Under the pieces are notes generated by a model that saw only the letters and a list, made by a program, of their open reading frames with translations, was not told where the DNA came from and ran no database searches. DNA of 44,441 bases from Flavobacteriaceae bacterium (GTDB lineage Bacteria > Bacteroidota > Bacteroidia > Flavobacteriales > Flavobacteriaceae): assembly GCA_024635765.1 (NCBI GenBank), contig JAGXIE010000149.1, positions 1 to 44,441 on the forward strand, in the 5' to 3' direction. Of the stretch, positions 27,763 to 44,106 are shown piece after piece. Made by a program: the position numbers and the translations under genes. How positions within the stretch are numbered: position 1 is the stretch's first letter; each line of letters opens with the position of its first letter.

Positions 27763-27765
27763 TTT

Positions 27766-28923
27766 TTAAATTACTTTAATAAATCGTGAAAATAGTGTGT
27801 CAATCATCCCCTCAAGTGTATAGTGGGTAGCTATTCTGCCTTTGTTATAAGCACCTATTTCAGCCGCCAGTTCCTTATGTTCCAACATGTATATCAACTT
27901 TTCAGCCAAATCTTTGGGATCATTGGGTTTTGTTAGTGTATATGTTTCATATCGGTCTGATAGTGCTTCTCTATCACCAGGAATGTCAGTTGCCACCACA
28001 GGTTTTCCCAGCGCCATGGCTTCACAGACTGCATTTGGACATCCTTCTGTATTGGAACTGTGAACCACTAAATCAGACTCCATCATTAGTTCGTTAACCT
28101 CTAAAACGGAGCCTATAAAAATAATACTATCTGATAAATTAAGGTCAAAAGCCATAATCTTCAGTTCGTCAGTTGCTTCTCTACAATCTCCCGCTAAAAC
28201 CAATTTTATATCAGAATTTTTTGCTCTAAAATGTGCAACCACATCATACCAGGCTTTTACCAGTGTTTTATGATCTTTCCAATACGTGATATTGGCAAAC
28301 ATACTGACAACCAAAGTTTCGGGTGATAGGTTCAATTTCGCTCTCCAAATCGGTTTTAGTCGGCTACCATCAAAAAGATAAGTGGGATTGTTGTAGAGCA
28401 CAACTTCATCTCGGGTAATATCATAATTTTCAACAATGAAGTTCTCTCCTGCAATGGAATTTGAGATAATATCACTGGCTTCCTTCATCAGGCGCTCTTC
28501 ATTTTTGGTTTTATACAACCCTCTACCTTCATCCTGCATGTTCCACCAGGCATATTTGGCGCCTGTATATCTCCAAAAAGGCAATATAGACTTACAATTA
28601 TCGCTGCTCCATGGCAATATAAAATCGGGTTTCAATTTTCTTAAGAAAAGAATCTGTTTTACAATTTGAGTTGCCTTGGAAAAATGCTTTGCGTGACGTT
28701 TGTATGGGAAAACGAAAGTCTCAAAACCCTTGTCATGCAATACATCTTTTAAGGCACCATTGCCACCATTTGCCAAGAAAACAACATCGGCGCCGATGTC
28801 ATTCTTTAATATTTCAGCTACTGTAATTGCCTTGGTTTCGGCACCTCCTATATTATTAAAGCTCCCAACTTTAAATATAAAGGTCTTACCTTCAAGTTTC
28901 GCTCTATAGTTATCTATATTCAT
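27766..28923 (-). CDS. Glycosyltransferase, GT4 family
   Basis: The product has 385 residues from an ATG at 28923. The N-terminal acceptor domain has FIFKVGSFNNIGGAETKAI, the G-G-A-E loop common in GT4 enzymes. The donor domain includes VVSMFANITYWKDHKTLV, LVLAGDCREA and the loop HSSNTEGCPNAVCEAMALG with the E-x7-E pair. It is cytosolic and retaining by family. It is preceded by 47 AT-rich bases after the acetyltransferase-glycosyltransferase fusion gene and is followed after three bases by another GT4 gene. Confidence 0.92.
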   Translation of the reverse strand: MNIDNYRAKLEGKTFIFKVGSFNNIGGAETKAITVAEILKNDIGADVVFLANGGNGALKDVLHDKGFETFVFPYKRHAKHFSKATQIVKQILFLRKLKPDFILPWSSDNCKSILPFWRYTGAKYAWWNMQDEGRGLYKTKNEERLMKEASDIISNSIAGENFIVENYDITRDEVVLYNNPTYLFDGSRLKPIWRAKLNLSPETLVVSMFANITYWKDHKTLVKAWYDVVAHFRAKNSDIKLVLAGDCREATDELKIMAFDLNLSDSIIFIGSVLEVNELMMESDLVVHSSNTEGCPNAVCEAMALGKPVVATDIPGDREALSDRYETYTLTKPNDPKDLAEKLIYMLEHKELAAEIGAYNKGRIATHYTLEGMIDTLFSRFIKVI

Positions 28924-28970
28924 TAGATATTGGTATCTTTAAAATAGCTTAAAATTTTGTTATTGTACAT

Positions 28971-30464
28971 CTATATGTTTTTTAAAAAACTAAATAGCCT
29001 CGTCATTTTTCTACCTAGCTTATACGATGTAGAAGTCATCAAAGCTGTGTTAAGGGCTTTTGTGTCTTTAAGCTCTTTATCTTGTGCTGCTATTTTGTTA
29101 GTGATGGCTTCCGTTAAGGCATTCGTTTCTTCTGCTAAGGTATAGCCTTCTGAAAATAAGATTTGCATATAGCGAGATATTTCACTTAAATTTTCTTCTT
29201 TAAGATGCAGCTGTATCAGCTTTATGACTTGTTTGAGATAATTTTCTTGTAATAACAAGTTGATTTCATTACTAAACTTATCTCTTAAGATTGCAAATAA
29301 GAGTAATAACGATTCAACATTCTTTATAGATTTTCCATTATGTAAATTTGCGCCCCAAACACCACCTGCATGAACACGTCTTACCACCATTTGTTCGTTT
29401 AAGATTTTAATTTTACCATATCCTGAACAAATCAAAAATAATGGCCAATCGCCTACAGGACTTTGCAAAGCCCAATCCGGATAATTTAAAATATACTCTT
29501 TTTTAAACAAGACACTTGCGGTAGGAATAAAATTACGTTCAGCCAAATCTCTTTGTTCAAACACACCTGCTTCACCTTCAATATCAGTAAGTGTTATCAC
29601 ATCGTCATATGTGCGGGTGGCCAAACTACCACAAATTGCAAAATCATTATTCACCTCTAGAAAATCGACTTGTTTTTGAAGTTTTAAAGGATCGGTCCAA
29701 TAGTCGTCGCCTTCGCAAATGGCTATGTATTTGCCATTACAAGCTCTCAAAATAGCGTCTTGGTTATTAACAGCTCCAATATTTTTGTTATTTAACAATA
29801 GCTTAAACTTACCTGGAAATCTATTTTGATACTCTAACAAGATATCTCTAGAATTATCTGGGGATGCATCTTCTCCAACGACAATTTCAAAATTAAAATT
29901 GCATTTTTGCATCAGTAAACCATCTATGCATTCTTTAAGGAAAGGTGCATGATTATAAACCATAACAAAAATGCTTACAGTTGGTTTTTGTAGTTCTGAA
30001 AGATTGCAATTCATATTCAACCACTCTCCATCTTTTGATACTCTTGCAAATCCATTCCTTTTATAGACACTTATGGCCGCACTATTTTCTTTTCTAACTT
30101 TAAGAAAAACGTTTTTCAAATCCAACAATTCTTTAGCAAAATATAAAATTTGGTAGGTGACTAATTTTGCTAATCCTTTACCCCAATAATTTTTATCTCC
30201 AATAAAAATATGATATTCCGCAGATTCATTTTCTATAATATCAGTTAATTGGACATTACCAACATAAATATCATCAATAATGATGGCAAAACGTCTGGTC
30301 GTTTTATCAGCAATAACTTTTTGGATCCAGGCATGTTCAATTTCAAAAGAGATTGGTTTGTTTGGTTTAAAACCAGTTAGCTCCCAAATTTTTGGATCAT
30401 TGCGCCATTCCCAGGAAACTTTAGCATCAGAAATTTCAAGAGGTCTAATTAATACCTTAAACAT
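28971..30464 (-). CDS. Bifunctional GNAT acetyltransferase-GT2 glycosyltransferase fusion
   Basis: The product has 497 residues from an ATG. Residues 1-155 form a GNAT domain of the RimJ/PseH type: LIRPLEISDAKVSWEWRND, an acetyl-CoA loop YWGKGLAK at 93-100, and NSAAISVYKRNGF. From residue 161 a GT2 domain begins (TVSIFVMVYNHAPFL), with EDAS at 198-201 and the metal motif EGDDYW at 251-256. A basic helical tail (about 450-497) ends the protein. The arrangement suggests that an aminosugar is N-acetylated and transferred by one polypeptide. The gene overlaps the second aminotransferase-like gene by 8 bases, which fits a shared aminosugar substrate. Confidence 0.88.
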   Translation of the reverse strand: MFKVLIRPLEISDAKVSWEWRNDPKIWELTGFKPNKPISFEIEHAWIQKVIADKTTRRFAIIIDDIYVGNVQLTDIIENESAEYHIFIGDKNYWGKGLAKLVTYQILYFAKELLDLKNVFLKVRKENSAAISVYKRNGFARVSKDGEWLNMNCNLSELQKPTVSIFVMVYNHAPFLKECIDGLLMQKCNFNFEIVVGEDASPDNSRDILLEYQNRFPGKFKLLLNNKNIGAVNNQDAILRACNGKYIAICEGDDYWTDPLKLQKQVDFLEVNNDFAICGSLATRTYDDVITLTDIEGEAGVFEQRDLAERNFIPTASVLFKKEYILNYPDWALQSPVGDWPLFLICSGYGKIKILNEQMVVRRVHAGGVWGANLHNGKSIKNVESLLLLFAILRDKFSNEINLLLQENYLKQVIKLIQLHLKEENLSEISRYMQILFSEGYTLAEETNALTEAITNKIAAQDKELKDTKALNTALMTSTSYKLGRKMTRLFSFLKNI

Positions 30465-31407
30465 CTAGTACCATTTTTCCAATTAATTCCATTTCCTTTT
30501 TACCATACCTTTGATCTATGGGAAAATAGATAACTTCATCTGTAAGTCGGTATTCTAAACTATTGGATTCGACCCACTCTTTAACATTTGGCCAATAGGT
30601 AGCAGTATATACTTTATTATTTATCAAATGTTGGCGTAATTCTTTGTTTCTGTTCCAAAAAGGATATACCATAGGAACACCAGAGCCATCGAAATTTAAC
30701 TTTAATAAGTTAAATTCTTTTAATTGATTGTGAAGAAACGCATAATTTTCCTTTCTTATATTAGCAGTTTCCCTATAATCGATAGCTTTTAATAAAGCTT
30801 GTGTAAGATTCGACATTTTTTTTATAGTCTGATTTGATAAACTTTTATCATTTTCTATAAAATAGGAATAACCATCTTCGGCGCTTACATCTGTTCTTCT
30901 CAATAAATGCTCAAATCTACCATATGAAAAATCTTGATTCAAATTGGTTAACAATTTTTCGTCGCAAAATAAATACGCCCCGTCTGGTAAACCAAAAAAT
31001 TTTCTTGGTGAGTAAAAAGTATCTATATTAGGAAGTGGTTTCGAGTAAAAAGATTGTGCATTATCAATAATTAAATTATTGCATTTTACTGCTAATTTAG
31101 CAATGAACTCATCTTTTAAACCGAAATAATTTGTGTATAAAAAGCCTTCATTAGCTCTAATTGAGTCATATTCAAAATTAGGCTCTAATAATTCATCAAT
31201 ATTATAAAAAACAAAATCAATCCCCAGTTTTTGTATTGGTTCTAAAAGAACATCACAAGTAAAATAGGGTATATGAATTTTTTCATATTTTCGTACTCTC
31301 AAAATATATTCTAAAGCATTTCTACCTGTGTTTAGTGCGATTGCACCTTCATGATAGATTTTGCCTTTTGGCAGTTCTAATTGAAAATAACCTCCAATGG
31401 CATTCAT
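30457..31407 (-). CDS. DegT/DnrJ/EryC1/StrS-like aminotransferase-related protein
   Basis: The product has 316 residues from the ATG at 31407; a TTG three codons earlier is in frame. It begins with AIALNTGRNALEYIL, equivalent to the cofactor-phosphate-binding region, then LIIDNAQSF in place of the usual D-A-A-H/Q block, and TFYSPRKFFGLPDGAYLF, where the Lys in P-R-K aligns with the PLP-binding Lys. It is shorter than standard family members (about 360-390). It probably acts on a nucleotide-linked keto-sugar or is a specialised relative. It overlaps the GNAT-GT2 fusion gene and follows the WbqC gene by 21 bases. Confidence 0.62.
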   Translation of the reverse strand: MNAIGGYFQLELPKGKIYHEGAIALNTGRNALEYILRVRKYEKIHIPYFTCDVLLEPIQKLGIDFVFYNIDELLEPNFEYDSIRANEGFLYTNYFGLKDEFIAKLAVKCNNLIIDNAQSFYSKPLPNIDTFYSPRKFFGLPDGAYLFCDEKLLTNLNQDFSYGRFEHLLRRTDVSAEDGYSYFIENDKSLSNQTIKKMSNLTQALLKAIDYRETANIRKENYAFLHNQLKEFNLLKLNFDGSGVPMVYPFWNRNKELRQHLINNKVYTATYWPNVKEWVESNSLEYRLTDEVIYFPIDQRYGKKEMELIGKMVLDV

Positions 31408-31428
31408 ATTATCCAACGTAAAAATATT

Positions 31429-32163
31429 TTAATTTTTCCATTTAACAGAATATGACTTTATTAAGCCTGATGTTGTGCTAACACCATTGAACATAAGTAC
31501 ATCAATAATGGATAAGCCTGATATAAAGTTTTTATTTAGTTGATCATATGATTTTAGTTCGGGCTGAATAAAGCCAAGTTTCATATTACATTGATTAAAC
31601 ATTTCTACCCCGATAAAACTTTCTCCTCCAGGAGAATTAACATAGTGAGTTGCATTCATTTCTTTTGCTATAACTCTACCCCAGTCTCCCTCATTTGGTT
31701 TTTCTTCAAACCAAAAATTATAATCTGTGTACCTATCAAACTTCGTGTGTAATCTCAATGCTTTACATATTTCTATTGTTGATTCAATATTAAAAGTACT
31801 GAGATAATCATGTTTCCTTTCAAAGATTAACAACAATAAATCCTTTACCTCTTCAAAATATGGTGCTTTATTTTTATAACCATTTAACTGTTCTAAAATT
31901 TTAAGTTTCCATTGCTCATTTCTATCCAATTTTACGGTCGGTAGAAGAGCTTTGTATTGAGGTTTTATTAGAGTTGGTCTTATATAAAATGGTTCTTCTT
32001 TTTCTATGTTTAAAATTCTATTTCTAGACATCCAAGATTTTTTTATGTATTGAACATCGTCAAAAAACATAAAATGATCAACACTATGAATTAGGGAAAA
32101 ATATCCAATATATGGAAAAAAATAAGGCTGCATGACTGCGACAGTTTTATCCTGAGTATGCAC
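31429..32163 (-). CDS. WbqC-family protein
   Basis: The product has 244 residues from a GTG at 32163. The N terminus is diagnostic of WbqC-like proteins: VAVMQPYFFPYIGYFSLIH followed by DDVQYIKKSWMSRNRI. The family is common in O-antigen and capsule loci. Its reaction is not firmly established; a role in aminosugar modification is often suggested from gene context. Here it overlaps the upstream aminotransferase by 17 bases and is followed by another aminotransferase-like gene and a GNAT-GT2 fusion, giving a compact aminosugar cassette. The protein is soluble. Confidence 0.9.
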   Translation of the reverse strand: MHTQDKTVAVMQPYFFPYIGYFSLIHSVDHFMFFDDVQYIKKSWMSRNRILNIEKEEPFYIRPTLIKPQYKALLPTVKLDRNEQWKLKILEQLNGYKNKAPYFEEVKDLLLLIFERKHDYLSTFNIESTIEICKALRLHTKFDRYTDYNFWFEEKPNEGDWGRVIAKEMNATHYVNSPGGESFIGVEMFNQCNMKLGFIQPELKSYDQLNKNFISGLSIIDVLMFNGVSTTSGLIKSYSVKWKN

Positions 32164-33226
32164 TGTTAATGATATTTACAATGTTCTTTAAAACTCGTTC
32201 TTCTAAAGTAGTATACAACGGCAAACACAGAACACGCTTTGCGATATAATCCGCGATTGGGCATTGTTCTGAAGTTAGGTACGGCAAGGTTTCTAGACTT
32301 GGGTAAAAGTAGCGTCTTGGTTTTATGCTTTCGGCTGCCAAATTTTGTATGGCTTGTATCAGGTGTTCTTCAGATGCAAAAACAATAGGGTAATAGGCGT
32401 AATTCCAATCTGTGTTGTCTCTGATTGTTAACTGCGATACATTTGAAAAATCCAAATGCTGGTTATAATAGTCACAAACACGTTTGCGCTCTTTGATTAT
32501 TGCATCTATATATGGTAAGACGCATAAACCCATTGCGGCCTGCAATTCACTCATCTTAGCATTGATACCTAAACCATAGTATTCTTCTGGCCCATCATGG
32601 CCGAAATTATGGCGATACCACATATCGTGATACGTTTGTTGGTTTTGACAAAACAAAGCGCCACCTTCACCGGTATGAAACAACTTCGTTGCATGAAAGC
32701 TACAAGTGCTCACATCTCCATAATTAAAAATAGATTGGCCCTTATAGGTGACGCCAAAACAATGCGCTGCATCGTAAATCACTTTTAAATGATGTTTTTT
32801 TGCAATGGCCTCTATGGTTTCAACATCGCAAGGATTACCATACACGTGGGTCGCTAAAATAGCGGTGGTTTCTTTTGTGATTGCTGCTTCTATTTTTGAT
32901 TCGTCGATGGTTAAATACTCTGGATGTATATCCACAAAAACAGGGGTACATTTTTCCCAAACAATACTCGCAGTGGTTGCCACATAACTAAAAGGCGTGG
33001 TAATCACTTCACCACCCTTAGCGTATGCATTTAAAGCAATTTGAATAGGCAACGTGCCATTGGTCATTGGGATGATTTGGTTGACTCTCAAAAAGTGTTG
33101 AAGTTTGAGGGTCAACTCTTGATACAATTCCCCATTATTGGTCAGCCACTGGTTATCCCATATACGTTGCACTTGCGCTTGGTATTCGGCAATAGGCGGG
33201 AAAAAGGTTTTGGTTACGTTAATCAT
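32147..33226 (-). CDS. DegT/DnrJ/EryC1/StrS sugar aminotransferase
   Basis: The product has 359 residues from an ATG. Canonical blocks are MTNGTLPIQIAL for the cofactor-phosphate region, TPFSYVATTASI, HVYGNPCDVE, YDAAHCFGV for the Asp that contacts the PLP ring, and CSFHATKLFHTGEGG with the PLP Lys. These enzymes aminate nucleotide-4-keto (or 3-keto) 6-deoxysugars in the cytosol; VioA-, DesV- and FdtB-like roles are all possible. It opens the aminosugar cassette, 8 bases after wzt, and overlaps the WbqC gene. It is distinct from the WecE-type enzyme at 13775, implying two aminosugars. Confidence 0.9.
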   Translation of the reverse strand: MINVTKTFFPPIAEYQAQVQRIWDNQWLTNNGELYQELTLKLQHFLRVNQIIPMTNGTLPIQIALNAYAKGGEVITTPFSYVATTASIVWEKCTPVFVDIHPEYLTIDESKIEAAITKETTAILATHVYGNPCDVETIEAIAKKHHLKVIYDAAHCFGVTYKGQSIFNYGDVSTCSFHATKLFHTGEGGALFCQNQQTYHDMWYRHNFGHDGPEEYYGLGINAKMSELQAAMGLCVLPYIDAIIKERKRVCDYYNQHLDFSNVSQLTIRDNTDWNYAYYPIVFASEEHLIQAIQNLAAESIKPRRYFYPSLETLPYLTSEQCPIADYIAKRVLCLPLYTTLEERVLKNIVNIINSAYSG

Positions 33227-33234
33227 ACACTATA

Positions 33235-34476
33235 TTAAAATTGTTGATTGAGTTCTTGCCATTCTCCTGCTATAACTGAGGTGCCCCATGAAATACCAAT
33301 CGCATTCATAGAGAAAAATATGCAGTTGGTAACACGCATATAGAACTGCCCTGTTAAAGGATTTGATGCTACTAAAGTGACAGCATATTTTCCGGTTGAT
33401 AAAATCAGATGAGGCAAGACCACTTCAAAATCCTGCTTTCCTTGACCCGTATTAGTAAACAGTTTGTCATTGTATGTTGAACTTGCTGATAAAGTTTCCC
33501 TTAACTGACCGTCAAACATTGTAATGCTTAAATCAAAGTCCTTAATGTTTTTTTTAATATTAAGCTTAAACCGCAAACGCAAATCCTCACCTGTTGTTAA
33601 CGAGGTGGAGTGGTCTGAAACAAAACTATTGGTTTGTGGGTTAAATACTTCCACTTCTGCCAACTCTATATCACCCGTTCCTTGATTGATACGTCCTGCC
33701 GATTCAAACAAGTCAACATACTGCTTAATAGCCTGTGCTGTGTCTGTTGAGGAATATTGCGCAGTCCCTTTATGCATTAATAGGGCTTGTGTAGACACTC
33801 GCGCCACCATGGGCATACTGTGTGAGACAAATATAGTGGCAGTTTTAGTCATTAACTCGCTTATTCTATTTAAGCATTTAATAATAAAGCCTAAATCGCC
33901 CACCGCTAACACTTCATCTATCAATAAAATATCTGGTTCCATTTCAGCCGCTATAGCAAAACCCAAGCGCACTTTCATTCCAGAACTGTAATTTTGTACC
34001 GGTGAATCAATGAATTCACCTATTTCACTGAAGGCTACTATTGCATCAAATTTGGCATCGATCTCTTTTTTTGTAAACCCTAACACAGCGGCGTTATTAT
34101 AAACATTTTCACGACCGGTAAGTATGGGGTTAAAGCCTGCGCCCAACTCTATCAATGCTCCAACACGCCCGCGCATGGTTACCTGACCAACATCTGGTGT
34201 TAAAAGGTTATTTAAAATCTTTAAGAGTGTGGATTTACCTGCACCATTATGACCAATAAGTCCTAAACATTCGCCTCGCTTGAGCTCAAAACTGATATCT
34301 TTAACGGCCCAAAATTCATCTTTACGTAAGGTGTTATTATGGTCGCCTTTATTTGAAAATGATAAACTTACATCCTTAATGCCATACCACAACGACCGCT
34401 TAAAGTCTCTACAGAATTTTTTGGATACGGATTCGCATTTTATGAGTATATCTTCGTCTTTACTGTCTGTATTCAT
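33235..34476 (-). CDS. wzt: Wzt-type ABC transporter ATP-binding protein with C-terminal glycan-binding domain
   Basis: The product has 413 residues from an ATG. The nucleotide-binding domain has Walker A GHNGAGKST at 75-83, the signature YSSGM at 163-167 and Walker B ILLIDE at 183-188. The long N-terminal extension with WAVKDISFELKRGE is typical of polysaccharide exporters. Residues from about 260 to 413 form a beta-rich domain like Wzt C-terminal modules, which recognise the finished end of an O-polysaccharide before export. It pairs with the permease gene 40 bases upstream. The extra domain implies that chain ends carry a recognised cap. Confidence 0.93.
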   Translation of the reverse strand: MNTDSKDEDILIKCESVSKKFCRDFKRSLWYGIKDVSLSFSNKGDHNNTLRKDEFWAVKDISFELKRGECLGLIGHNGAGKSTLLKILNNLLTPDVGQVTMRGRVGALIELGAGFNPILTGRENVYNNAAVLGFTKKEIDAKFDAIVAFSEIGEFIDSPVQNYSSGMKVRLGFAIAAEMEPDILLIDEVLAVGDLGFIIKCLNRISELMTKTATIFVSHSMPMVARVSTQALLMHKGTAQYSSTDTAQAIKQYVDLFESAGRINQGTGDIELAEVEVFNPQTNSFVSDHSTSLTTGEDLRLRFKLNIKKNIKDFDLSITMFDGQLRETLSASSTYNDKLFTNTGQGKQDFEVVLPHLILSTGKYAVTLVASNPLTGQFYMRVTNCIFFSMNAIGISWGTSVIAGEWQELNQQF

Positions 34477-34516
34477 TGTTTAAAGATATGCATAACACTA
34501 ATTAGAAAAAAAATTA

Positions 34517-35371
34517 TTACGCGCCAACACGCTCGATAATGATAGGCATGGTGATTCTATACAAGATCCAGCCTATAACAAGTATAATTAAGGAGCCAAA
34601 TAACGCTATCCAGATAGGAACAGTGCTGGCAACCTCCAGACCTGTAAACCAATTTCTTGGTATCGATATCAAATAATAAAGAGGATTATACTGATTAAAG
34701 GTTTTAATGATTCCAGAGTCCGGCATTGGATAAACAATAGGCGTGGCATACATTAACAATTGAGTACCCACTGTTATAATACGACCAATATCGCCGTACA
34801 ACATTTTAAAAGGAATTAAAAACACCCCAATACTAAACCCAAAAAGCATAATAACCAAAGCCCCCAACGGAAATAACAAGGCTGACCAACCTAAACTAAA
34901 ACTCAAAACTAAAGCAATAATCAACAAGGGAAGTAACTTTAAAACAAATTCAAAAAGCACACTATAAAAAGCATTTATTAATAACGCCTCTCTAGGGAAA
35001 TTCAACTTTGCCATCATGCTTTTTCCTGCATTAACAGCATCCGAAGGCATATTAAGTGCATGTGTAAAAGTAACAAATAAAACAGTCCCTGAAATGACAA
35101 ATATAGGATAAGGTATGCCAGTATCAGTAATATTAACAGCACCTGAAAAATTAAGGAAAATCCACAGACCTCCAGATAAAAATGGTGGTATAATAGCCCA
35201 CAAAAGTCCTAATAGAGATTGCCTAAACATTGCTTTAGTATCTCGAATAAAAATTTGCCTTCCCAAAAACCTAGCATCTTTTAAATCAGAAAACATCTGC
35301 TTGAGCGACATGCTCTTTTTTGATGTTTTAGCTGGCGCATTGATGCTCACCTTTAAGTTTGTTGTAGTCAT
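34517..35371 (-). CDS. wzm: Wzm-type ABC-2 polysaccharide permease
   Basis: The product has 284 residues from an ATG. A cytosolic N terminus (ARFLGRQIFIRDTKAMFRQSLLGLLWAIIPP) carries the coupling helix typical of ABC-2 polysaccharide permeases. Six membrane spans follow, with the conserved NPLYYLISIPRNW loop before the last two. It forms the membrane channel that exports lipid-linked polysaccharide using Wzt. It is the first structural gene after the antiterminator, separated by a 418-base spacer. Confidence 0.93.
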   Translation of the reverse strand: MTTTNLKVSINAPAKTSKKSMSLKQMFSDLKDARFLGRQIFIRDTKAMFRQSLLGLLWAIIPPFLSGGLWIFLNFSGAVNITDTGIPYPIFVISGTVLFVTFTHALNMPSDAVNAGKSMMAKLNFPREALLINAFYSVLFEFVLKLLPLLIIALVLSFSLGWSALLFPLGALVIMLFGFSIGVFLIPFKMLYGDIGRIITVGTQLLMYATPIVYPMPDSGIIKTFNQYNPLYYLISIPRNWFTGLEVASTVPIWIALFGSLIILVIGWILYRITMPIIIERVGA

Positions 35372-35789
35372 TAATTTATGGTTCGTTCTTTTTAATCTTT
35401 TATTTGATATTTGGTATTAGCTACTAATGAAAAGTGATTGAATATTTTTAACTTATAACTTGTGCTTGGTAAAAAACTTATTAAATTTTTTTATATGATA
35501 TATTAGTACTGAAGAATTAAGCTTTACAAATTTCATCCTCATTTCCTTAAATATACCAATTGCTCTAAATTGCTCTAAAAAGTATCAGAATGTAGATTTA
35601 AAACTTTATATAGCCGTTATAGTTTCCCCACGGCTTCGCCACCATCAGTCACATATCAAATATTCAACGTGCTGACTTACAGTTTTCTATGATTTATTTC
35701 AGCACTAACCAGTGCCAGTGCTTTTTTTACAAGCCACGAAAATACTATAATTCCTAATATACTCTTTAACAGATTACGTATTAATACTG
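35372..35789 (-). other. 418-base spacer between upxY and wzm
   Basis: No credible coding frame was seen on either strand. The DNA is very AT-rich near wzm. It contains a doubled decamer AATTGCTCTA around 35559-35578 and a hairpin with T-run at 35701-35728. A leader or secondary promoter for the exporter genes is possible, but no complete Bacteroidota promoter was recognised. Confidence 0.5.
35701..35728 (+). terminator. Short hairpin with T7 run in the upxY-wzm spacer
   Basis: AGCACT (35701-35706) pairs with AGTGCT (35717-35722) and a run of seven T follows on the plus strand. The stem is only six pairs, so it is a weak terminator candidate for plus-strand transcripts. On the minus strand, the direction of the operon, the hairpin has A residues ahead of it and no T-run after it. 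Confidence 0.3.
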
Positions 35790-36248
35790 TCAAATTTGCA
35801 ATTTAATAACATAACCCAAATTATCCAAAACCACCCAACACTGCTTCCCAGACACATATTTAACCGTTCCTTCTTCGAGTTGAAAGCCCATACCCTTGAG
35901 GTCTATTTTGCTGCCCGGTTTTAAGGCTTCTACGCGCTCGACCTTAATGCCGCTCGATTTTAAATCCATTAAAGTCTCAATCTCGATTTCAGAAACCACG
36001 GCAGGTTTGCCGAGCCAAAACAAATAACGAACAGCGCCATAGGTCTCAAAGACCAAGGGACGATCCTTATCCTCCAGTTTCACCAATACCATAGAGGGCA
36101 GCAAAGGCACCTCCACTTTCTTCTTGCGGTCGCTCCATTGGCGTAATTCTGTACGCACAGGACAGCAAACTTCAATGCCTCGTTCTTGTAGCTTTTGTGC
36201 TACTTTTTTTTCAGATTTTGGTTTGGTGATAAGGACGTACCAAGGCAT
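35790..36248 (-). CDS. UpxY/NusG-family transcription antiterminator
   Basis: The product has 152 residues from an ATG. The N-terminal NGN domain has PWYVLITKPKSEKKVAQKL and VPLLPSMVLVKLEDKDR. The C-terminal KOW-like part runs from about residue 108 (KPGSKIDLKGMGFQLEEGTV). In Bacteroides, UpxY proteins are encoded first in capsule operons and let RNA polymerase read through the long locus by acting on the 5' leader. The gene leads a polysaccharide operon of over 36 kb here, which fits exactly. The upstream region with inverted repeats is a likely site of regulation. No UpxZ-like partner gene follows. Confidence 0.93.
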   Translation of the reverse strand: MPWYVLITKPKSEKKVAQKLQERGIEVCCPVRTELRQWSDRKKKVEVPLLPSMVLVKLEDKDRPLVFETYGAVRYLFWLGKPAVVSEIEIETLMDLKSSGIKVERVEALKPGSKIDLKGMGFQLEEGTVKYVSGKQCWVVLDNLGYVIKLQI

Positions 36249-36745: not shown

Positions 36746-37152
36746 AAATTTTCAGTCTCTAACATCTTAATAAATAAAAAACTAATCTCTCGAGTATCCT
36801 TTTTCAACCGAAAAAAAAACCGAACTAGACATAATAACGTAAATATGCACCATTCATCCAAAAAATATCAATCCAATAATAGGTTTGTACTAGATTTGTT
36901 GAAAACTTAGACTGTTTAGATTTTGATTTCCCTCTTCGACATACAAACACTTTGAGAACAATGGATAGCTAACAATAAGGTCGCAAGACCAACTTATGAG
37001 CTATGAGAAATCTCTATAATGCTTTAACTATATGATTATGAGTGTTTTATTGATTTTAAAATGTACCAAATGATTTCTTTAAATATTAACCTAATTTCTG
37101 CTACAAATTGAAACAATTCCGAATCTTTAATCGATTACTAAACACGTTTACC

Positions 37153-39639
37153 ATGAAAAAAATCTACTTATTATTATTTGCGTTTGCCTTTTCTGCTATT
37201 GGATTTGGGCAGACCGTAATTACAAACCAAACTTTTACGACAGCTTCGGCCACACCTCCGGCGGGATGGTCTGCAACGAGTGTTACATTCCCAGGAGGCT
37301 ATGCATTATTTGGAACCATTAATTCTTCTGAATTAACGTCTCCATCTTTTCCTGTGAGTGCTTATTCAAGTATTGTTTTAAATTTTGAGGCGGCAAAAAT
37401 TGGAACCCAAGGTAATGATGCTCCTCTTACCATTGATTATTCTGTCGATGGCGGAGTTACCTACATAAATCCTGTCGAAACAATAGAATTCACAGACAAC
37501 AACACATGGGTGGGTCAATCTGTAACTATAAATAACCCAGGCGCGAATATTATAATTCGTTTCTCAAAATTATCTGGACCTAAAGATATCGGCTTAAGAA
37601 ATTTAGTTATCACGGGGAATTGTGAACCGGCTACCCAGGCTTCTAATTACACAACCACAAACATCAATTCGCCATCCATCGGAAACGCAACTCTTAATTG
37701 GACGCGCGGAAGTGGCAATAATGTCTTGGTAGTGATGCGACAAGGTTCGGCAGTAACCGCAACCCTTGTGAATGGTTCAACTTACACAGCGAATGCTACA
37801 TTTGGAACTGGCCAACAAATTGGTGCAGGAAATTATGTGGTGTATAACGGCTCTGCTAGCACAGTTAATGTTTCAGGATTGAATATAAATACAGACTATC
37901 ATGTGGCAATTTATGAATTCAATAGCACTGGCAACTGCTATAAAATCCCAGCCCTCACAGGTAACTTTAGGGTCCCGGGTAGCGTTAGCTACCTTTACGC
38001 TGACAGTTGGCTACCCCCTAATGGAGACCCTAACGGTATTTCCACGGTAGCCGATAATATAAATATTTTATTTGGCAATGCAACTATCAATACCAATACA
38101 CTAATTAACAACGTTACTGTGAATCCGTTCAGTGCTCTAACCATCAACGCTGGTGCAGTGCTTCAGGTCAACGGTCTATTGACCATGCAATCCGGTAACT
38201 TAAACTATTCAAGTTTAATGGTTGAAGGATCCATCATCGGTGCAATACGATATGAGCGCCATGTCAACGGTGGTCCTGGTGTCGGCGAGGGTGCCGGAGC
38301 GAACGATTTAATTTCATCGCCTTTGGTGAGCAGCCAAAACTTTGGTGCTTTTGCCAACAGCAATCCTAACATTAGATTTGATGAGCGTACTGTTGAAAAT
38401 GGAGGAGACCCCAACAATAAAGTGTTTGGCCCCTTTGACAAGGCAACAGGTGCTTATTTGACGTGGAATTCTGTTAATGACGCTGCCAACGCACTCACAT
38501 CAGGGGTAGGATACAGAGCCGCCTCGACTGATAATAGCAGTTTCGTGTTTAGGGGTACTGTCAATCAAGGCATTGTTACAAACAACATTACCTATACCAC
38601 CACTCCTGGTGTTCCTTACAAACCATGGAACCTCGTTGGTAATCCTTATCCTGCCTACATTAACGTTGGTGATTTCTTGAACTATGTCGTGGACACCAAT
38701 CCAAGCACAAGAAATGTGGACATACTAGATCTTTTCGGTGCTGCCATTTATGGCTATGACGGGAATGCAAGCGATGGTTGGACCATTTGGAATTTAAATA
38801 CTCCAGAAAAAAACATGGCGCCAGGACAGGGCTTTTTAGTTCAAGCAGACCAGGCACTCGTAGATGCCTACGACCTTACATTCGCGCCTTCGATGCGAAG
38901 GATTGGCACTACGGATGATTTTATCGTTGGAAGATCAGCAAACTCTAACAATTTTCATTTAAAGTTGCGTGCGGTGATTGGCACTGGTAACTACCATACT
39001 GATTTTTATTTTAATGACAACTCAAGCTCTGGACTTGACAAAGGCTATGATGCCACCGTTTATGGTAACATTGCTGCTTCGAAGTCAATCTATTCACGCT
39101 TAGTGGAAAACAGCACAGGAAAAGATATTGCGATACAGTCCTTGGCCACTGAAGCTCTTGAATCGGACATCGTTGTACCATTGGGCATCAAGGCCGCACA
39201 AGGACAACAGGTGACCGTGAGTATTGCAGAGTCCGATCTGCCTTCTAACATAGAGGTCTATCTCGAGGACAACGTTACTGGCATCTTTACTTTATTGAAT
39301 GATAGCGATTATGTCTTTACGCCTAGTTCTACCCTGAATAGCACGGGACGTTTCTTCCTTCGCTTCAGTGACCAGACACTATCAACACCCGAAACAACTT
39401 TTGATGGATTGCAAATTTTTACAACTGCTTCACCAAGAACTCTTTTCATTAAAGGACAGTTGGACGAGACCAGTAGCATTACACTATATGATATACAAGG
39501 ACGTGTGGTATTGTCGTCCCAACTTGAAACCTCTTCTAGCACAAACCAAGTGGACGTGTCCAACTTGAGCTCTGGTGTATATGTGGTGAAACTGAACAAC
39601 GCTTCTCAACAGAAAACACAGAAGGTGATTCTGAAGTAA
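37153..39639 (+). CDS. Secreted multidomain protein with T9SS type A sorting domain
   Basis: The product has 828 residues from the ATG at 37153; a TTG 15 codons upstream would place charged residues ahead of the signal peptide. The signal peptide is MKKIYLLLFAFAFSAIGFGQ. Residues up to about 165 resemble a choice-of-anchor/carbohydrate-binding-like beta-sandwich, followed by a fibronectin-like segment (about 170-270). A long beta-rich region comes next, then a module beginning NNFHLKLRAVIGTGNYHTDF near residue 601. The last 75 residues (YDIQGRVVL...GVYVVKL...QKVILK) are a T9SS type A sorting signal, so it is exported and probably anchored on the outer surface. No catalytic motif was seen; an adhesin or matrix role is inferred. 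Confidence 0.9.
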   Translation: MKKIYLLLFAFAFSAIGFGQTVITNQTFTTASATPPAGWSATSVTFPGGYALFGTINSSELTSPSFPVSAYSSIVLNFEAAKIGTQGNDAPLTIDYSVDGGVTYINPVETIEFTDNNTWVGQSVTINNPGANIIIRFSKLSGPKDIGLRNLVITGNCEPATQASNYTTTNINSPSIGNATLNWTRGSGNNVLVVMRQGSAVTATLVNGSTYTANATFGTGQQIGAGNYVVYNGSASTVNVSGLNINTDYHVAIYEFNSTGNCYKIPALTGNFRVPGSVSYLYADSWLPPNGDPNGISTVADNINILFGNATINTNTLINNVTVNPFSALTINAGAVLQVNGLLTMQSGNLNYSSLMVEGSIIGAIRYERHVNGGPGVGEGAGANDLISSPLVSSQNFGAFANSNPNIRFDERTVENGGDPNNKVFGPFDKATGAYLTWNSVNDAANALTSGVGYRAASTDNSSFVFRGTVNQGIVTNNITYTTTPGVPYKPWNLVGNPYPAYINVGDFLNYVVDTNPSTRNVDILDLFGAAIYGYDGNASDGWTIWNLNTPEKNMAPGQGFLVQADQALVDAYDLTFAPSMRRIGTTDDFIVGRSANSNNFHLKLRAVIGTGNYHTDFYFNDNSSSGLDKGYDATVYGNIAASKSIYSRLVENSTGKDIAIQSLATEALESDIVVPLGIKAAQGQQVTVSIAESDLPSNIEVYLEDNVTGIFTLLNDSDYVFTPSSTLNSTGRFFLRFSDQTLSTPETTFDGLQIFTTASPRTLFIKGQLDETSSITLYDIQGRVVLSSQLETSSSTNQVDVSNLSSGVYVVKLNNASQQKTQKVILK

Positions 39640-39700
39640 GAACATTTAGGTTGTTGAACGGTTAGATTTTAAACCTGTTTTGATGATTTGATTTTATATA

Positions 39701-39737
39701 AAAAGTGTGTTGCCATTGGCAACGCACTTTTTTTTTT
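39701..39737 (+). terminator. Rho-independent terminator after the large T9SS gene
   Basis: The stem GTGTGTTGCC / GGCAACGCAC (one G-T pair) has an ATT loop, is preceded by AAAA and is followed by ten T residues, 62 bases after the stop codon at 39639. This is a strong terminator. Confidence 0.92.
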
Positions 39738-39912: not shown

Positions 39913-40677
39913 ATGAAAAATCTTTACCTATCAGTTATTGCATGCGCAATTACCTCACTTTGCCTTGCACAAAACAATCCTAACAATTTCCATTTAAAAT
40001 TGCAAGCAGTAATAGGAAATGGGAACTACACCACCGATTTTTATTTCAACGACAACTCTAGCTCGGGTATTGACAGAGGTTATGATGCAGCCGTTTTTAA
40101 CAACACAGCACCTGCAACAGCAATTTACTCAAAATTAGCGGATGGCAGCTATTCTAATATTGATTTTGCCATACAGTCACTGCACACTTCGGCACTAGGA
40201 TCAAACATTGTCGTACCGTTGGGAATCAATGTGGCCCAAGGTCAACAAGTTACGATTAGGATTACTGAAACAAGCTTGCCCACAAACATTGGAGTGCTTC
40301 TTGAAGATACGGTGACAGGCGTATCTACCTTACTGAATTATAGCAATTACAGCTTTACACCGATTAACATCCTGAATGGGGCCAGTCGTTTTAAACTTCG
40401 ATTTACCTCTCAAAGCTTATCAAATCCAGAGTCATCCATCAATAATGTGGAGATTTATAGTACGATGGCTTCTCGAAACCTATATATTAAAGGCCAGTTG
40501 GCAGAAACAGCAAGTGTCTCAATCTATGATCTGAACGGACGATTGGTATTGTCGACCGATCTTAAAGGATATTCCGGTTCTAACCAAGTGGATGTCTCTG
40601 GATTAAATTCAGGGATCTATGTAGTGAAACTCATAACAAACTCTCAACAGAAAACTAAACAGGTAATTCTTAAATAG
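39913..40677 (+). CDS. Short T9SS-sorted paralogue of the upstream protein's C-terminal module
   Basis: The product has 254 residues from an ATG. After the signal peptide (MKNLYLSVIACAITSLCLAQ) it starts directly with NNPNNFHLKLQAVIGNGNY, and continues with FYFNDNSSSGIDRGYDA, GINVAQGQQVTI and a type A sorting domain (YDLNGRLVL...GIYVVKL...QVILK). It aligns throughout with the last 228 or so residues of the preceding large protein, so it looks like a partial duplication that gained or kept its own signal peptide. It is likely secreted by T9SS and surface bound. Separate terminators suggest it is its own transcription unit. Confidence 0.9.
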   Translation: MKNLYLSVIACAITSLCLAQNNPNNFHLKLQAVIGNGNYTTDFYFNDNSSSGIDRGYDAAVFNNTAPATAIYSKLADGSYSNIDFAIQSLHTSALGSNIVVPLGINVAQGQQVTIRITETSLPTNIGVLLEDTVTGVSTLLNYSNYSFTPINILNGASRFKLRFTSQSLSNPESSINNVEIYSTMASRNLYIKGQLAETASVSIYDLNGRLVLSTDLKGYSGSNQVDVSGLNSGIYVVKLITNSQQKTKQVILK

Positions 40678-41049: not shown

Positions 41050-41211
41050 ATGAATAAGAAAAACCAAGATAACAATATTACACGTAACCAAGCTATCAAG
41101 CGAATGGGTAAATACGCCGCACTCACAGCAGTAGGTACGTTTCTTATTTTAAATCCACAGAAAGCTCAAGCTGCCTCTCCACCAGATCCGGGAGGAGAGC
41201 CTTTTCCATAA
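41050..41211 (+). CDS. Small leader-like peptide, candidate modified-peptide precursor
   Basis: The product has 53 residues from an ATG. A polar N terminus with T-R-N-Q-A-I-K-R (11-18) leads into a hydrophobic segment (about 22-34, YAALTAVGTFLIL). A signal-peptidase-like AQA (39-41) follows, then a short tail SPPDPGGEPFP (43-53) with only one Ser, one Asp and one Glu as side-chain targets. The layout is a secretion-type leader plus a tiny core. The stop lies 7 bases before the PqqD/HPr-kinase-like gene, so the two are surely co-translated. That neighbour's recognition-type region makes this the probable substrate. A lone lipoprotein-like or structural micropeptide is the alternative. Confidence 0.75.
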   Translation: MNKKNQDNNITRNQAIKRMGKYAALTAVGTFLILNPQKAQAASPPDPGGEPFP

Positions 41212-41218
41212 AACACGA

Positions 41219-42358
41219 TTGACTTTGAAGGCTCTATCAGCCCCAAAACACAAACAGCAAATTGGAAACAACTATGTACTCTGGTTCGAAAGCTCCAATA
41301 GCTACATTGTTATTTCAACTACGGCTTATGTATTATTGACCTGTTATTATGAATCCAAAGATAGGGATGTCTACATAAAAAACCTCCAAAAACAGTTTGA
41401 TATTCCAGAAAAAGAAGCGAACTCATACTTCGATGATTTTTCGGGATTCTTGAAATCTTTAAACTCAAATTCACAAATAGCTGAATTTAAAACACCTATT
41501 GCAATCCCAAATCCAAACATCACTCGATATTATGCCTTTGGTGATTCTCAAATTGCTATAAATTACGGGTCAGACAGGGTTTCACAACTCATAAATCCCT
41601 ATTTGCAACACGCTTCAGTAAAAGAGTGTTCTCATGTTGAAACAGCATTTGATATTTTCAGTAATGATAACCTTCTCTATTTATTCAAAAACAAGAAACT
41701 AATAGGAAGTTACCAAACATCCAATTTTCATTTTTTGCAGGGAAAGTTTGCCATGGAACTTGTCACGTCCATCTACAACAATACTGAATCGGACTGGCTA
41801 GGAACTTTTCACGCCTCCACGATATGTAATGATAAAGAAGCGATCATGATTATTGGAGATTCCGGTAATGGGAAAAGTACGCTCTCGGCAGTACTTATGT
41901 CAAATGGTTATGATCTTTTGGCAGATGATTTTACACCAATGCTCGCTAAAAATCAGCATTTATATCGTTTTCCCGCCGCTATTTCCATAAAAAAAGGTGC
42001 TTTCGCTCTTATAGGAGGATTGTTCGATGGCTTTAACGCACTAGAATCTGAAGTGAGTACTTCAAAACATACGACCGTAAAGTATTTGCCGCCATCAAAA
42101 CCCTTCAAATCTTCAAAAAAACATTTTGAATGTCGAAAACTAGTAATGGTCAAATATACGTCTGATGTTAAATCAGAATTGCGTGAATGTTCTCCTGAAA
42201 AAATTCTACAAACTTTTATTCCCGATTCATGGATTTCTCCGAAACCAGAACATTCCAGACAGTTTCTCAATTGGTTAAAAGGTATGCAATTCTATGAATT
42301 GACCTATAGCGATAATGATTTCGCAGTGGCCAAGTTTAAAGAATTATTCGAGCTTTAA
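41219..42358 (+). CDS. PqqD-like domain fused to HPr-kinase-like ATPase
   Basis: The product has 379 residues. The start is a TTG at 41219, since no ATG occurs before the conserved part. Residues about 15-85 have the PqqD-like pattern (YVLWFESSNSYIVISTTAY...IPEKEANSYFDDFSGFL) seen in RiPP recognition elements. The C-terminal domain is HPr-kinase-like: FHAS with His198, the P-loop GDSGNGKST at 213-221, and LLADD with the acidic pair 236-237. Such kinases phosphorylate peptides, for example the C-terminal Ser in paeninodin-type lasso clusters. It probably binds the 53-residue peptide by the first part and phosphorylates or otherwise activates it by the second. Function is inferred. Confidence 0.82.
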   Translation: MTLKALSAPKHKQQIGNNYVLWFESSNSYIVISTTAYVLLTCYYESKDRDVYIKNLQKQFDIPEKEANSYFDDFSGFLKSLNSNSQIAEFKTPIAIPNPNITRYYAFGDSQIAINYGSDRVSQLINPYLQHASVKECSHVETAFDIFSNDNLLYLFKNKKLIGSYQTSNFHFLQGKFAMELVTSIYNNTESDWLGTFHASTICNDKEAIMIIGDSGNGKSTLSAVLMSNGYDLLADDFTPMLAKNQHLYRFPAAISIKKGAFALIGGLFDGFNALESEVSTSKHTTVKYLPPSKPFKSSKKHFECRKLVMVKYTSDVKSELRECSPEKILQTFIPDSWISPKPEHSRQFLNWLKGMQFYELTYSDNDFAVAKFKELFEL

Positions 42359-42411
42359 TGGTTAAGACTATCAATACTTTCCTTAATTTTAGTCCTGTTA
42401 AATAACAAACA

Positions 42412-43461
42412 TTGACCAAAAACAAGCAGCCTTTAAAAGAAACCATACAACTCATTGTTGATATTTTGAGCTATGAGACCTCTGATACCGTTTTAGAACA
42501 CTATTTAATCAATAGCGCGGTTGATTGGGATGCGATCGTCATAGTGGCCAGTAAACATCTTGTGCTTCCAGCCGTTTATTGCAGATTGAAGCAAAAATCA
42601 TTATTGAGATACCTTCCCGAAGATTTAAAACAATATTTGGAAGAACTCACTCAACTTAACAGAGACCGAAATGAAACGCTCTTACATGAAGTTGAACAAA
42701 TTTCCAAATTGTTTATAGCAAACAATATTGAGCATGTGTTCATCAAAGGAATTGGATTACTATCTGGCAACTATTTTGAAGACCATGGTGAACGTATGAT
42801 AGGTGATATCGACATTTTGGTCGCTTCAGATGATATAGACAAAGCATTCAAGCTATTGGTCAATGAAGGCTACTCACAATTTTTACCGTTCAATTATGAG
42901 GTCAAAAACTATAGGCATCAACCACGCCAAATATCAAAAAAACGTTTAGGCGCTATAGAACTACATAGTCAACTCTTAAAGCATGAATACAAGGATTTGA
43001 TTAATATTGATTTGTTTTTATCGAGTAAAGAAATTGTCAATGGAATAGCTGTTCCAAATTCTGAACAGTTAATTTGGAATGCCATTTTAGCACAACAAAT
43101 CAATGACAGATCGTATTATTATAATGTCTTAAAACTAAAAGGACTTTATGATGTCTTAGTTTTGGGGTTGTCTCAAAAAAAGCGATTGATTAAAGAATTG
43201 TCAAATCAAAAACATTCTTTGGGCTTCTTAAGCCTTGCCTCTATTTTTTGTCCATCAATCGCACCGCTAGCTGCAACCGGCAAAACCAATTATAAAAAAT
43301 ACTTATTTCTATTTACTATGAACTATCCAGCGTTTGGTGCCTTAATGATCAAAATAAAATCATTGCACAGTGCTATTAAAGAACGGATTCATCTCTTTTT
43401 TCTCAATAAAAGCTATCGTGCTCATATCCTTAAAAACAAGCTATGCAAAAAGCATTCGTAA
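42412..43461 (+). CDS. NTP_transf_5-type nucleotidyltransferase
   Basis: The product has 349 residues from a TTG at 42412, 53 bases after the kinase-like gene. Helical N-terminal residues (about 1-105) precede the catalytic core: the VFIKGIGLL block with K112-G113, GDIDILV with Asp132 and Asp134 as the metal pair, and AIELHSQLL as the third conserved block. Proteins of this family are frequent beside HPr-kinase-like genes in peptide-modification clusters and may attach or extend a nucleotide on a phosphorylated peptide. No membrane span is evident, though the C terminus is basic. The substrate is inferred from operon position only. Confidence 0.82.
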   Translation: MTKNKQPLKETIQLIVDILSYETSDTVLEHYLINSAVDWDAIVIVASKHLVLPAVYCRLKQKSLLRYLPEDLKQYLEELTQLNRDRNETLLHEVEQISKLFIANNIEHVFIKGIGLLSGNYFEDHGERMIGDIDILVASDDIDKAFKLLVNEGYSQFLPFNYEVKNYRHQPRQISKKRLGAIELHSQLLKHEYKDLINIDLFLSSKEIVNGIAVPNSEQLIWNAILAQQINDRSYYYNVLKLKGLYDVLVLGLSQKKRLIKELSNQKHSLGFLSLASIFCPSIAPLAATGKTNYKKYLFLFTMNYPAFGALMIKIKSLHSAIKERIHLFFLNKSYRAHILKNKLCKKHS

Positions 43462-43533
43462 ATTTCTTTAAAAATTTTATTGCTATTTTTGTTATGTTAA
43501 AGTAAAAGTCTATTTTTGGTTAAAGTTTTTTTT

Positions 43534-44106
43534 ATGAAAAAGGTAATAATTTTATTGTTTATATCATTTTTTGGATTCACATCATTTGCACAAAACCCAG
43601 GCCGTGACTGGCTTTTGAGTGTTGGTGTTAACACAGTTGCTAATTTTGGAACCAGAAACCCATTCGAAGATTTAAACGAAAACATCGATCGTTTTGCTTT
43701 TAGACAACCAGTTGCTGTTGCTATTGAGCGTAAATGGACGAAATATTTGTACATAGAGCAAGATATAAGTTTAAATGGTTTTAAGGAGAATGAGTTTATT
43801 GATAACGGAAGACCTGACAAGGATTTGTTTTACTTCTCAACAAATACGACCTTAAAATATTATTTTGATGACCTTTTATTTAGCCGAACAGACTGGTTAA
43901 ATCTTTATGCAGGTGCTGGTGTTGGTCTTTTTAATATGGAAGAACTTAATACTTCTATTAACGTTGTTTTTGGAACTGTTGTATGGGTGAGTGATAATGT
44001 TGGTATTCGATTAGGTACAATGGGTAAATTTGCGTTAAACGCGGATTCGAGACAATATGATAACAATCACTATCAATTCTTTTTAATGGGTGTTTTTAAA
44101 TTATAG
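43534..44106 (+). CDS. Small outer-membrane beta-barrel protein
   Basis: The product has 190 residues from the ATG at 43534; a TTG six codons upstream is also in frame but spoils the signal peptide. The signal peptide MKKVIILLFISFFGFTSFAQ is followed by alternating hydrophobic strands with aromatic ends (LLSVGVNTVANFG, YLYIEQDISLNGF, LNLYAGAGVGLF, NHYQFFLMGVFKL), the pattern of an eight-stranded porin-like or OmpW/OmpA-type barrel ending in a hydrophobic C terminus. It lies 72 bases after the nucleotidyltransferase and before a strong terminator, so it could be the last gene of the cassette. Its link to the peptide is unproven. Confidence 0.75.
   Translation: MKKVIILLFISFFGFTSFAQNPGRDWLLSVGVNTVANFGTRNPFEDLNENIDRFAFRQPVAVAIERKWTKYLYIEQDISLNGFKENEFIDNGRPDKDLFYFSTNTTLKYYFDDLLFSRTDWLNLYAGAGVGLFNMEELNTSINVVFGTVVWVSDNVGIRLGTMGKFALNADSRQYDNNHYQFFLMGVFKL

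Follow-up and report, generated by a model that had tools for sequence, protein, structure and literature searches.

The stretch of DNA analysed here, which we call the window, comprises 44,441 nt of a Flavobacteriaceae bacterium (assembly GCA_024635765.1, contig JAGXIE010000149.1, positions 1-44,441) and carries, at its end and entirely on the + strand, a trio of genes that an earlier note on the sequence had read as a candidate minimal peptide-modification system. The trio consists of a 53-aa candidate precursor peptide (41050-41211), a 379-aa kinase-like frame (41219-42358) and a 349-aa nucleotidyltransferase-like frame (42412-43461), and the three open reading frames (ORFs) lie where the note had placed them. 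The source genome (G000; G and L numbers denote our genomes and loci) is fragmented into 200 contigs and is 87.8% complete. The peptide has a basic N-terminus, a conserved leader, ITRNQAIKRMGKYAALTAVGTFLILNP, an A-x-A site (A39-Q-A41), Ser43 and a Pro/Gly tail. Its leader, an export-signal-like segment at residues 10-41, runs up to the AxA (41077-41172, +), and the Ser codon, the proposed modification site, lies at 41176-41178 (+). The AxA is as the note described it, but the tail beyond it has 12 residues, the 11 given there being obtained when counting from after Ala42. The 7-base gap between peptide and kinase likewise stands for the frame beginning at 41219, but the likelier kinase start is the second TTG, at 41225, because relatives begin at the residue matching that codon.

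The peptide is a real, conserved gene under purifying selection. Over the 15 pairs of six collinear sequences, from the window and five relatives, the ratio of nonsynonymous to synonymous substitution rates (dN/dS) was 0.05-0.17, with two values being upper bounds and synonymous sites near saturation in some pairs. In an alignment of 27 peptides the invariant positions, besides the first Met, are R12, A15, G20, A24, T26, A27, L34, P36 and S43. The 33-residue leader has a mean pairwise identity of 76% across 16 loci, at which the kinase has 38% and the first 20 residues of an outer-membrane protein, an ordinary signal peptide, have 35% (37% after leaving out two doubtful starts, L065 and L073). 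Since the ordinary signal peptide is so much less conserved, the peptide leader is constrained beyond a role as export signal, a type of sequence that it also resembles.

The single Ser of the window peptide, at codon 43 and two residues beyond the A-x-A, is a conserved position of the family. A scripted check found Ser at AxA +2 in 45 of 49 distinct peptide ORFs; the other four rows are a Tyr in the decayed copy of G324, two halves of the frameshifted copy of G355, and L052, which the script's pattern missed and which reads A-T-S by eye. The tail after the Ser varies in length and sequence and is rich in Pro and Gly. This arrangement, a conserved leader followed by a variable tail, is that of a precursor gene for a ribosomally synthesized and post-translationally modified peptide (RiPP). 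Long tails, of about 45-55 residues as against about 12, occur at L048, L049, L050 and L056, where leader and Ser are kept.

In the second gene, kinase residues 128-376 match TIGR04352 (HprK_rel_A) through the profile end with an E of 2e-19, and all 32 aligned kinases match it at E<=1, the best at 1.4e-23. The residues invariant in the 32 kinases are H198, G213, S215-G216, G218-K219-S220 and D236-D237. The Walker A motif, GDSGNGKS at residues 213-220 (41855-41878, +), aligns with that of the HPr kinase 1ko7, and the closest solved structures by sequence are HPr kinases. The active-site set of HPr kinase/phosphorylase, namely Walker A residues, a His and an Asp pair, is thus present, and we take H198, the Walker A residues and D236-D237 to have the corresponding catalytic roles. 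These features bear out the HPr-kinase-like P-loop domain of the earlier note. The window kinase falls below the cut-off of Hpr_kinase_C (21.3 vs 33.3 bits) and misses that of TIGR00679, the HPr kinase/phosphorylase family (21 of 240 bits); on its sequence, it is a distant HprK_rel_A relative. A phylum-wide search recovered full-length matches in 4 of 296 genomes, all of them Flavobacteriaceae, the window's own family, and the other 205 matching genomes had, among the matches listed, partial, kinase-domain matches. A profile scan of contigs with the P-loop as sole pattern yielded one partial match, to residues 197-300, at L043.

Ahead of the kinase domain, approximately residues 9-82 (41243-41464, +) appear to form a domain like PqqD and the RiPP recognition element (RRE), by which RiPP enzymes bind leader peptides. 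Comparison by hhalign of residues 1-105 with 29 aligned PqqD proteins from Bacteroidota gave a probability of 78-81%; the score of 28.7 was reached by none of 300 column shuffles (mean 8.7, maximum 18.0), and 40 decoy windows gave at most 14.7. PqqD was absent from the 25 Pfam families shown, of 56, for the 32 kinase members, and PF05402 (PqqD) had no match in the source genome. A single-sequence model of 91 N-terminal residues predicts the three-stranded sheet followed by three helices that typifies PqqD and RRE domains (predicted local distance difference test, pLDDT, 75.7). The single-sequence model of the whole kinase was poor (pLDDT 38.6), and the structural comparison used the N-terminal fragment only. 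The six best Foldseek matches were lasso B1 proteins in complexes with leader peptides, with a best E of only 0.05, which is not significant alone. After re-alignment, the top seven comprised three lasso B1 chains, TigE, two chains of a sactipeptide enzyme and PqqD, with Z from 8.1 to 5.2, a Z of about 8 being typical of unmatched models according to the tool. TigE and the sactipeptide enzyme, too, carry RREs, so that all seven are RRE- or PqqD-bearing proteins. Profile comparison, predicted fold and structural matches agree with each other and with the PqqD-like N-terminus that the earlier note had proposed and had wanted compared with RRE and PqqD models, a lack of RRE similarity being one of the results that would have told against its reading. 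We therefore regard this region as PqqD/RRE-like, judged from sequence and model, and as a putative leader binder; by predicted fold and profile, the candidate precursor has an RRE-bearing enzyme beside it.

The third gene belongs to NTP_transf_5, as the earlier note had assigned it: PF14907 matches with an E of 2e-33 and 116.4 bits against a gathering cut-off of 31.2. All of 32 sequences have K112-G113 and D134, and nearly all have D132; no solved structure matched the nucleotidyltransferase significantly (best E 0.1). The pairing of these two enzyme families has a precedent in lasso peptides, and the parallel drawn by the earlier note holds at the family level: a lasso cluster on a Butyrivibrio plasmid (L279) combines an HprK-like kinase with a PF14907 protein (E 3e-38). 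According to reviews, PsmK phosphorylates the Ser of a lasso peptide and PsmN adds one or two hexoses (PMC9266682, PMC8498205); one of them offers the alternative that PsmN is a true nucleotidyltransferase and that a host enzyme adds the sugar. From the Butyrivibrio case, PsmN would itself belong to PF14907.

Shared enzyme families might suggest that the trio is the remnant of a lasso cluster whose cyclase and protease have been lost. The earlier note had described both as missing, and Pfam scans of window ORFs of at least 150 aa, from 26485 to the end, indeed contained no asparagine-synthase or transglutaminase-type family; by eye, no lasso cyclase or protease family was recognised among the families common to at least four of 35 loci. 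The scans thus show neither a C protein nor a B2 protease nearby, and the Ser is internal, not C-terminal. For these reasons a lasso origin of the trio was rejected, and with the set under purifying selection, degeneration from such a cluster is scarcely credible.

A different possibility is that the kinase does not act catalytically on the peptide, and that the three genes form a module for regulation or stress, the peptide being a small membrane protein. The hydrophobic stretch of the leader could remain in the membrane, and no product is known. Against this, the motifs of kinase and nucleotidyltransferase are kept in 32 sequences each, and the part beyond the AxA is free to vary save for the Ser and the Pro/Gly bias, as would suit a released peptide. 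We consider such a module very improbable.

Peptide and kinase occur together. A peptide profile built from 27 sequences taken beside kinases was searched in 397 genomes of the same family and matched 41 of them at E<=0.01, or 40 once G395 was left out, where the match (E 0.005) lies within a 1074-codon frame. The kinase profile matched 43 of the 397 at E<=0.001, with 36 strong matches (E<=8e-58) and seven partial ones that were left out of the counts (G039, G177, G182, G287, G290, G305 and G358). The peptide was found in 35 of the 36 strong-kinase genomes and in 5 of the 361 others (Fisher p 1e-43), a co-occurrence that is partly ascertained, the profile having come from kinase neighbours, and a p value that ignores relatedness. 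In the exception, G051, the kinase lies at a contig edge, and no peptide matched even at E<=1. The peptide ORF stands directly upstream of the kinase, within 250 bp and on the same strand, in 27 of 35 loci examined, and in the genomes of the remaining eight the profile locates it elsewhere in or outside the locus or, at L070, directly upstream but with an in-frame stop. The peptide is thus conserved beside the gene pair in relatives, without which the earlier note would have given up its reading.

In the five genomes with peptide but no kinase, a second kinase search found at most a 26-residue match (G177). Three of the five hold damaged peptide copies: that of G324 has no ATG, GTG or TTG ahead of the leader and has Tyr for Ser, that of G336 contains in-frame stops, and that of G355 is frameshifted, with the matching domain of the secreted protein encoded upstream also fragmented. 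The other two, G177 and G316, are assemblies that are 84% and 82% complete and whose genus mates hold the kinase. In 34 of the 35 genomes with both genes (all except G109) the peptides were read, giving 32 intact ORFs, one cut by a contig end (G058) and one with an in-frame stop (G192). Decay of the peptide is commoner without the kinase (3/5 vs 1/34), yet it is not confined to kinase-less genomes.

The steadiest neighbour of the peptide is a protein with the C-terminal tail of type A cargo of the type IX secretion system (T9SS). Two such proteins precede the peptide in the window, both on the + strand: a large surface protein of 843 aa (37108-39639), the candidate partner, and a short one of 254 aa directly upstream of the peptide (39913-40677). 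Both exceed the Por_Secre_tail cut-off (47.8 and 42.6 vs 27 bits), with E values of 2e-12 for the 843-aa and 7e-11 for the 254-aa protein, and both carry a pre-tail domain (269 and 168 bits, respectively) that is the same as in the peptide-linked T9SS proteins of relatives. The 254-aa protein resembles a shortened copy of the 843-aa one, its signal sequence being joined straight to the pre-tail domain and sorting tail.

Across 49 peptide rows, from which the duplicate regions L142, L143 and L145 were left out, a same-strand ORF with a T9SS tail ends within 450 bp upstream of the peptide in 42, three of which have a short T9SS-tail ORF only (L139, 77 aa; L147, 80 aa; L148, 44 aa). The linkage extends to regions fetched without a kinase gene, where it was seen in 14 of 18 rows (one of these regions, L144, lies about 6 kb from the kinase gene); the four unlinked rows are one partial ORF, two halves of a frameshifted copy and one at a contig start. 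The 14 include genome G360 (L135-L138), which has six pairs of T9SS protein and peptide with nearly identical tails (SPExPGxGF), the kinase lying elsewhere. When 299 genomes were searched with a profile of the pre-tail domain, copies of at least 120 bits occurred in 33, of which 28 have the kinase, 2 the peptide only and 3 neither; G138, at 102-104 bits, was left out of this count, and the profile was built from those same genomes, with extra copies outside the build scoring equally high. In 60 nearer relatives, too, only kinase genomes have the strong class, and no other genome scores above 94 bits.

Such linkage raises the question of whether the enzymes have another target, the T9SS surface protein or a polysaccharide of the surface, with the peptide as a regulator, chaperone or guide and not as the substrate. 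The peptide follows the T9SS gene even apart from the kinase, the pre-tail class is nearly limited to genomes with kinase or peptide (30/33), and polysaccharide genes lie upstream of the window trio and near some of the alphaproteobacterial loci described below. An RRE in the kinase, by contrast, implies the binding of a peptide leader, the conserved Ser sits just beyond that leader as it would in a substrate, and the alphaproteobacterial loci have the peptide while the adjoining large protein, where there is any, is of a different kind. On balance we think a surface target unlikely.

An arrangement like that of the trio was found in Alphaproteobacteria. Searches of plasmids by tblastn returned 48 nucleotidyltransferase and 14 kinase records, partly overlapping (62), and 15 loci were examined from 44 listed. 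Kinase and nucleotidyltransferase are both present at 12 loci outside the lasso cluster, representing about seven types, since L272/L275/L276, L267/L278, L270/L274 and L268/L271 are near-identical by eye; the annotation of the Sphingomonas set names an HPr-rel-A PqqD chaperone, an HprK-related kinase A and a nucleotidyltransferase. When the 15 loci, with 1744 ORFs in all, were searched with the flavobacterial peptide profile, there were 13 matches at E<=10. Ten of these, with the lowest E values (3e-4 to 0.17), fall in 10 of the 12 loci, no more than about 320 bp from kinase or nucleotidyltransferase, and the other three have an E of at least 4.3. An eleventh peptide (L273) was spotted by eye just before the kinase, and the twelfth locus, L266, has a signal-like ORF of a different type. 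These peptides, approximately RRxFLK..GKFAAVTPPAVTxLL...AIAKSGG, repeat the order of a basic motif, G-[KR]-[FY]-A, a hydrophobic segment and AxAxS, and by eye the Ser lies at equal distance in 10 of 11. In the plasmid records opened, the precursors are a 'hypothetical protein' or stand outside the gene table, the PLSDB table being incomplete. As a group, the eleven alphaproteobacterial kinases have N-terminal PqqD domains (hhalign 97.9%); singly they are uneven, with L265 matching PF05402 at an E of 5e-9 and L268 showing no clear match. Large cadherin-like proteins adjoin two Leisingera loci, and a cadherin/RTX protein adjoins L270. At L274 a convergent gene resembles, by sight, the cadherin/RTX gene of L270. 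Polysaccharide genes were also seen near these loci, among them a UDP-GlcNAc 2-epimerase gene (L272) and polysaccharide export genes in Leisingera (L267, L278).

All 11 of the alphaproteobacterial peptides carry RR, and eight of them RRxF(L/I), by eye. The twin-arginine translocation (Tat) system exports proteins that have already been processed, and would suit these motifs. One could thus keep the peptide as substrate and suppose Tat export, with the kinase RRE as a Tat proofreading chaperone that holds the signal until modification is complete; TatC is, moreover, present in 36 of 37 genomes. TatC is nevertheless too common there to be informative, and the flavobacterial peptides lack the motif: the n-region of the window peptide reads TRN, the residue after Arg in the 49 flavobacterial ORFs is Lys in 38, Asn in 5 and Thr in 1, the remainder having been misread by the script, and no RR occurs among their readable motifs. 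Tat export in flavobacteria was accordingly set aside, its motif giving no support and the TatC survey being uninformative, and we rate the Tat version of the model as quite unlikely.

Taken together, the data lead us to favour, with some confidence, a model in which an RRE-guided Ser kinase and a nucleotidyltransferase modify a signal-bearing peptide that partners a secreted surface protein. The trio would be a minimal RiPP-like cassette for modification that includes no cyclase, no leader protease and no exporter of its own. The kinase-fused RRE would bind the conserved leader (ITRKEAxKKMGKYAALTA...), the HprK-type domain would phosphorylate the Ser two residues past the AxA, and the NTP_transf_5 protein would extend the phosphate by a further group, a sugar or nucleotide being the likeliest from what is reported of the pseudomycoidin pair. 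Family knowledge and the lasso precedent suggest these three steps. The modified peptide would then be exported by the general export machinery with the leader serving as signal, and cleavage, probably at the AxA, would leave a short Pro/Gly tail whose new N-terminus lies close to the modified Ser. Once released, it may act at the surface with the particular class of T9SS-secreted proteins encoded just upstream. We infer the roles of the peptide as substrate and of Ser as site, the nature of the added group, the export and cleavage of the peptide, and its function alongside the surface protein. The gene set, the RRE-like fold, the catalytic motifs, the Ser, the T9SS linkage and the peptide decay in some genomes that lack the kinase are the part of the model read from the sequences themselves. 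The earlier view that a kinase and a nucleotidyltransferase may decorate a secreted peptide gains support from the conservation, the RRE likeness and the conserved Ser, and to it are added the leader doubling as signal, the T9SS neighbour and the alphaproteobacterial likeness.

Several observations, besides the ascertainment of the co-occurrence and the modest structural scores given above, weigh against this model. The window kinase reaches 69.8 bits, well short of the TIGR04352 equivalog cut-off of 200. Genome G192 (locus L070) has an intact kinase frame, yet its sole peptide copy, which immediately precedes that frame, is interrupted by an in-frame stop ahead of the tail, from decay of the system or an error in the assembly; in G238 one peptide copy is intact and a second is broken. 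Members of the T9SS class are more numerous than the peptides: G198 has nine strong copies and one peptide, and in 16 regions around further copies of the class (one, from G138, being weaker) there was no adjacent peptide, the best match to the peptide profile being non-adjacent with an E of 0.13. Genomes G108, G162 and G202 carry the T9SS class without kinase or peptide, an absence repeated in second searches. The relation of peptide to T9SS protein is therefore not one to one. Finally, the flavobacterial and alphaproteobacterial RRE domains are not directly alignable (0.5%), each matching PqqD separately, which tells against homology of the two arrangements as wholes.

The enzymes are of known kinds; the novelty lies in the family of candidate substrates, in a leader that resembles a signal and in the candidate partner at the surface. 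The HPr-rel-A system of NCBIfam (HprK-related kinase A, TIGR04352; PqqD-type chaperone, TIGR04353; nucleotidyltransferase), annotated in Sphingomonas parapaucimobilis, where the kinase scores 228 bits, has the same three functions adjacent. The window differs in that one protein combines the PqqD domain with the kinase, which scores under the family cut-off, and here a candidate substrate and surface partner are named. The paeninodin and pseudomycoidin lasso pair (PadeK/PsmK, PsmN) likewise includes an HprK-like kinase, and the Butyrivibrio lasso cluster a PF14907 nucleotidyltransferase, whereas the window has no cyclase or protease, an internal Ser by the AxA in place of a C-terminal one, a kinase-fused RRE and a signal-like leader. 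With the PqqD/RRE domains of TbiB1, other lasso B1 proteins, sactipeptide enzymes and PqqD, the kinase N-terminus shares the predicted three strands then three helices, but the flavobacterial proteins show no Pfam PqqD among the first 25 families and their leader binding is putative. The upstream partner has the Por_Secre_tail of T9SS type A cargo and differs from such cargo generally in its pre-tail subclass, which is nearly limited to genomes with the trio system. In the open-licence literature, subscription papers lying outside its scope, we found no description of this system, nothing on a substrate of HPr-rel-A, and none of the names HPr-rel-A, HprK-related kinase, TIGR04352, TIGR04353, NTP_transf_5 or PF14907.

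Other features of the window frame the trio. Downstream, a 196-aa protein (43516-44106) has a weak outer-membrane beta-barrel match; such a gene follows the trio at 16 of 35 loci and was set aside as a fourth gene of the system, its recurrence being taken as shared synteny. A terminator scan identified one clear hairpin, at 39700-39732, 3' of the large T9SS gene, but the hairpin count of 3 was not in excess over shuffles (2.0, sd 1.5) and does not define an operon boundary. Upstream, positions 1-36248 on the - strand hold a large polysaccharide-type cluster, assigned by Pfam scan from 26485 to 36248 and otherwise by eye, with glycosyltransferases, a DegT aminotransferase, WbqC, an ABC-2 transporter with a Wzt C-terminal domain and a NusG-like antiterminator. 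Of the 34 other kinase loci, 4 have a relative of the NusG-like gene.

More tentatively, and with rather less confidence than we place in the model for the window, the flavobacterial and alphaproteobacterial loci may belong to one as yet undescribed class of modified peptides spanning two phyla, in which an RRE-kinase takes an export signal for its leader, the Ser by the signal-cleavage site is phosphorylated or phosphoglycosylated before export, and the product serves as companion, anchor or primer for surface proteins. The partners would be T9SS cargo in flavobacteria and cadherin/RTX-type proteins beside some alphaproteobacterial loci, which we hold equally tentatively. For HPr-rel-A, the present findings put forward a concrete family of candidate substrates that spans two phyla and has a single candidate site. 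The precursors are short (about 48-146 residues), and surveys based on gene calls may miss many. If the model is true, RiPP-style leader recognition would here be applied to an export signal, and the phosphorylation or phosphoglycosylation of Ser would reach beyond lasso peptides and be tied to proteins of the cell surface.

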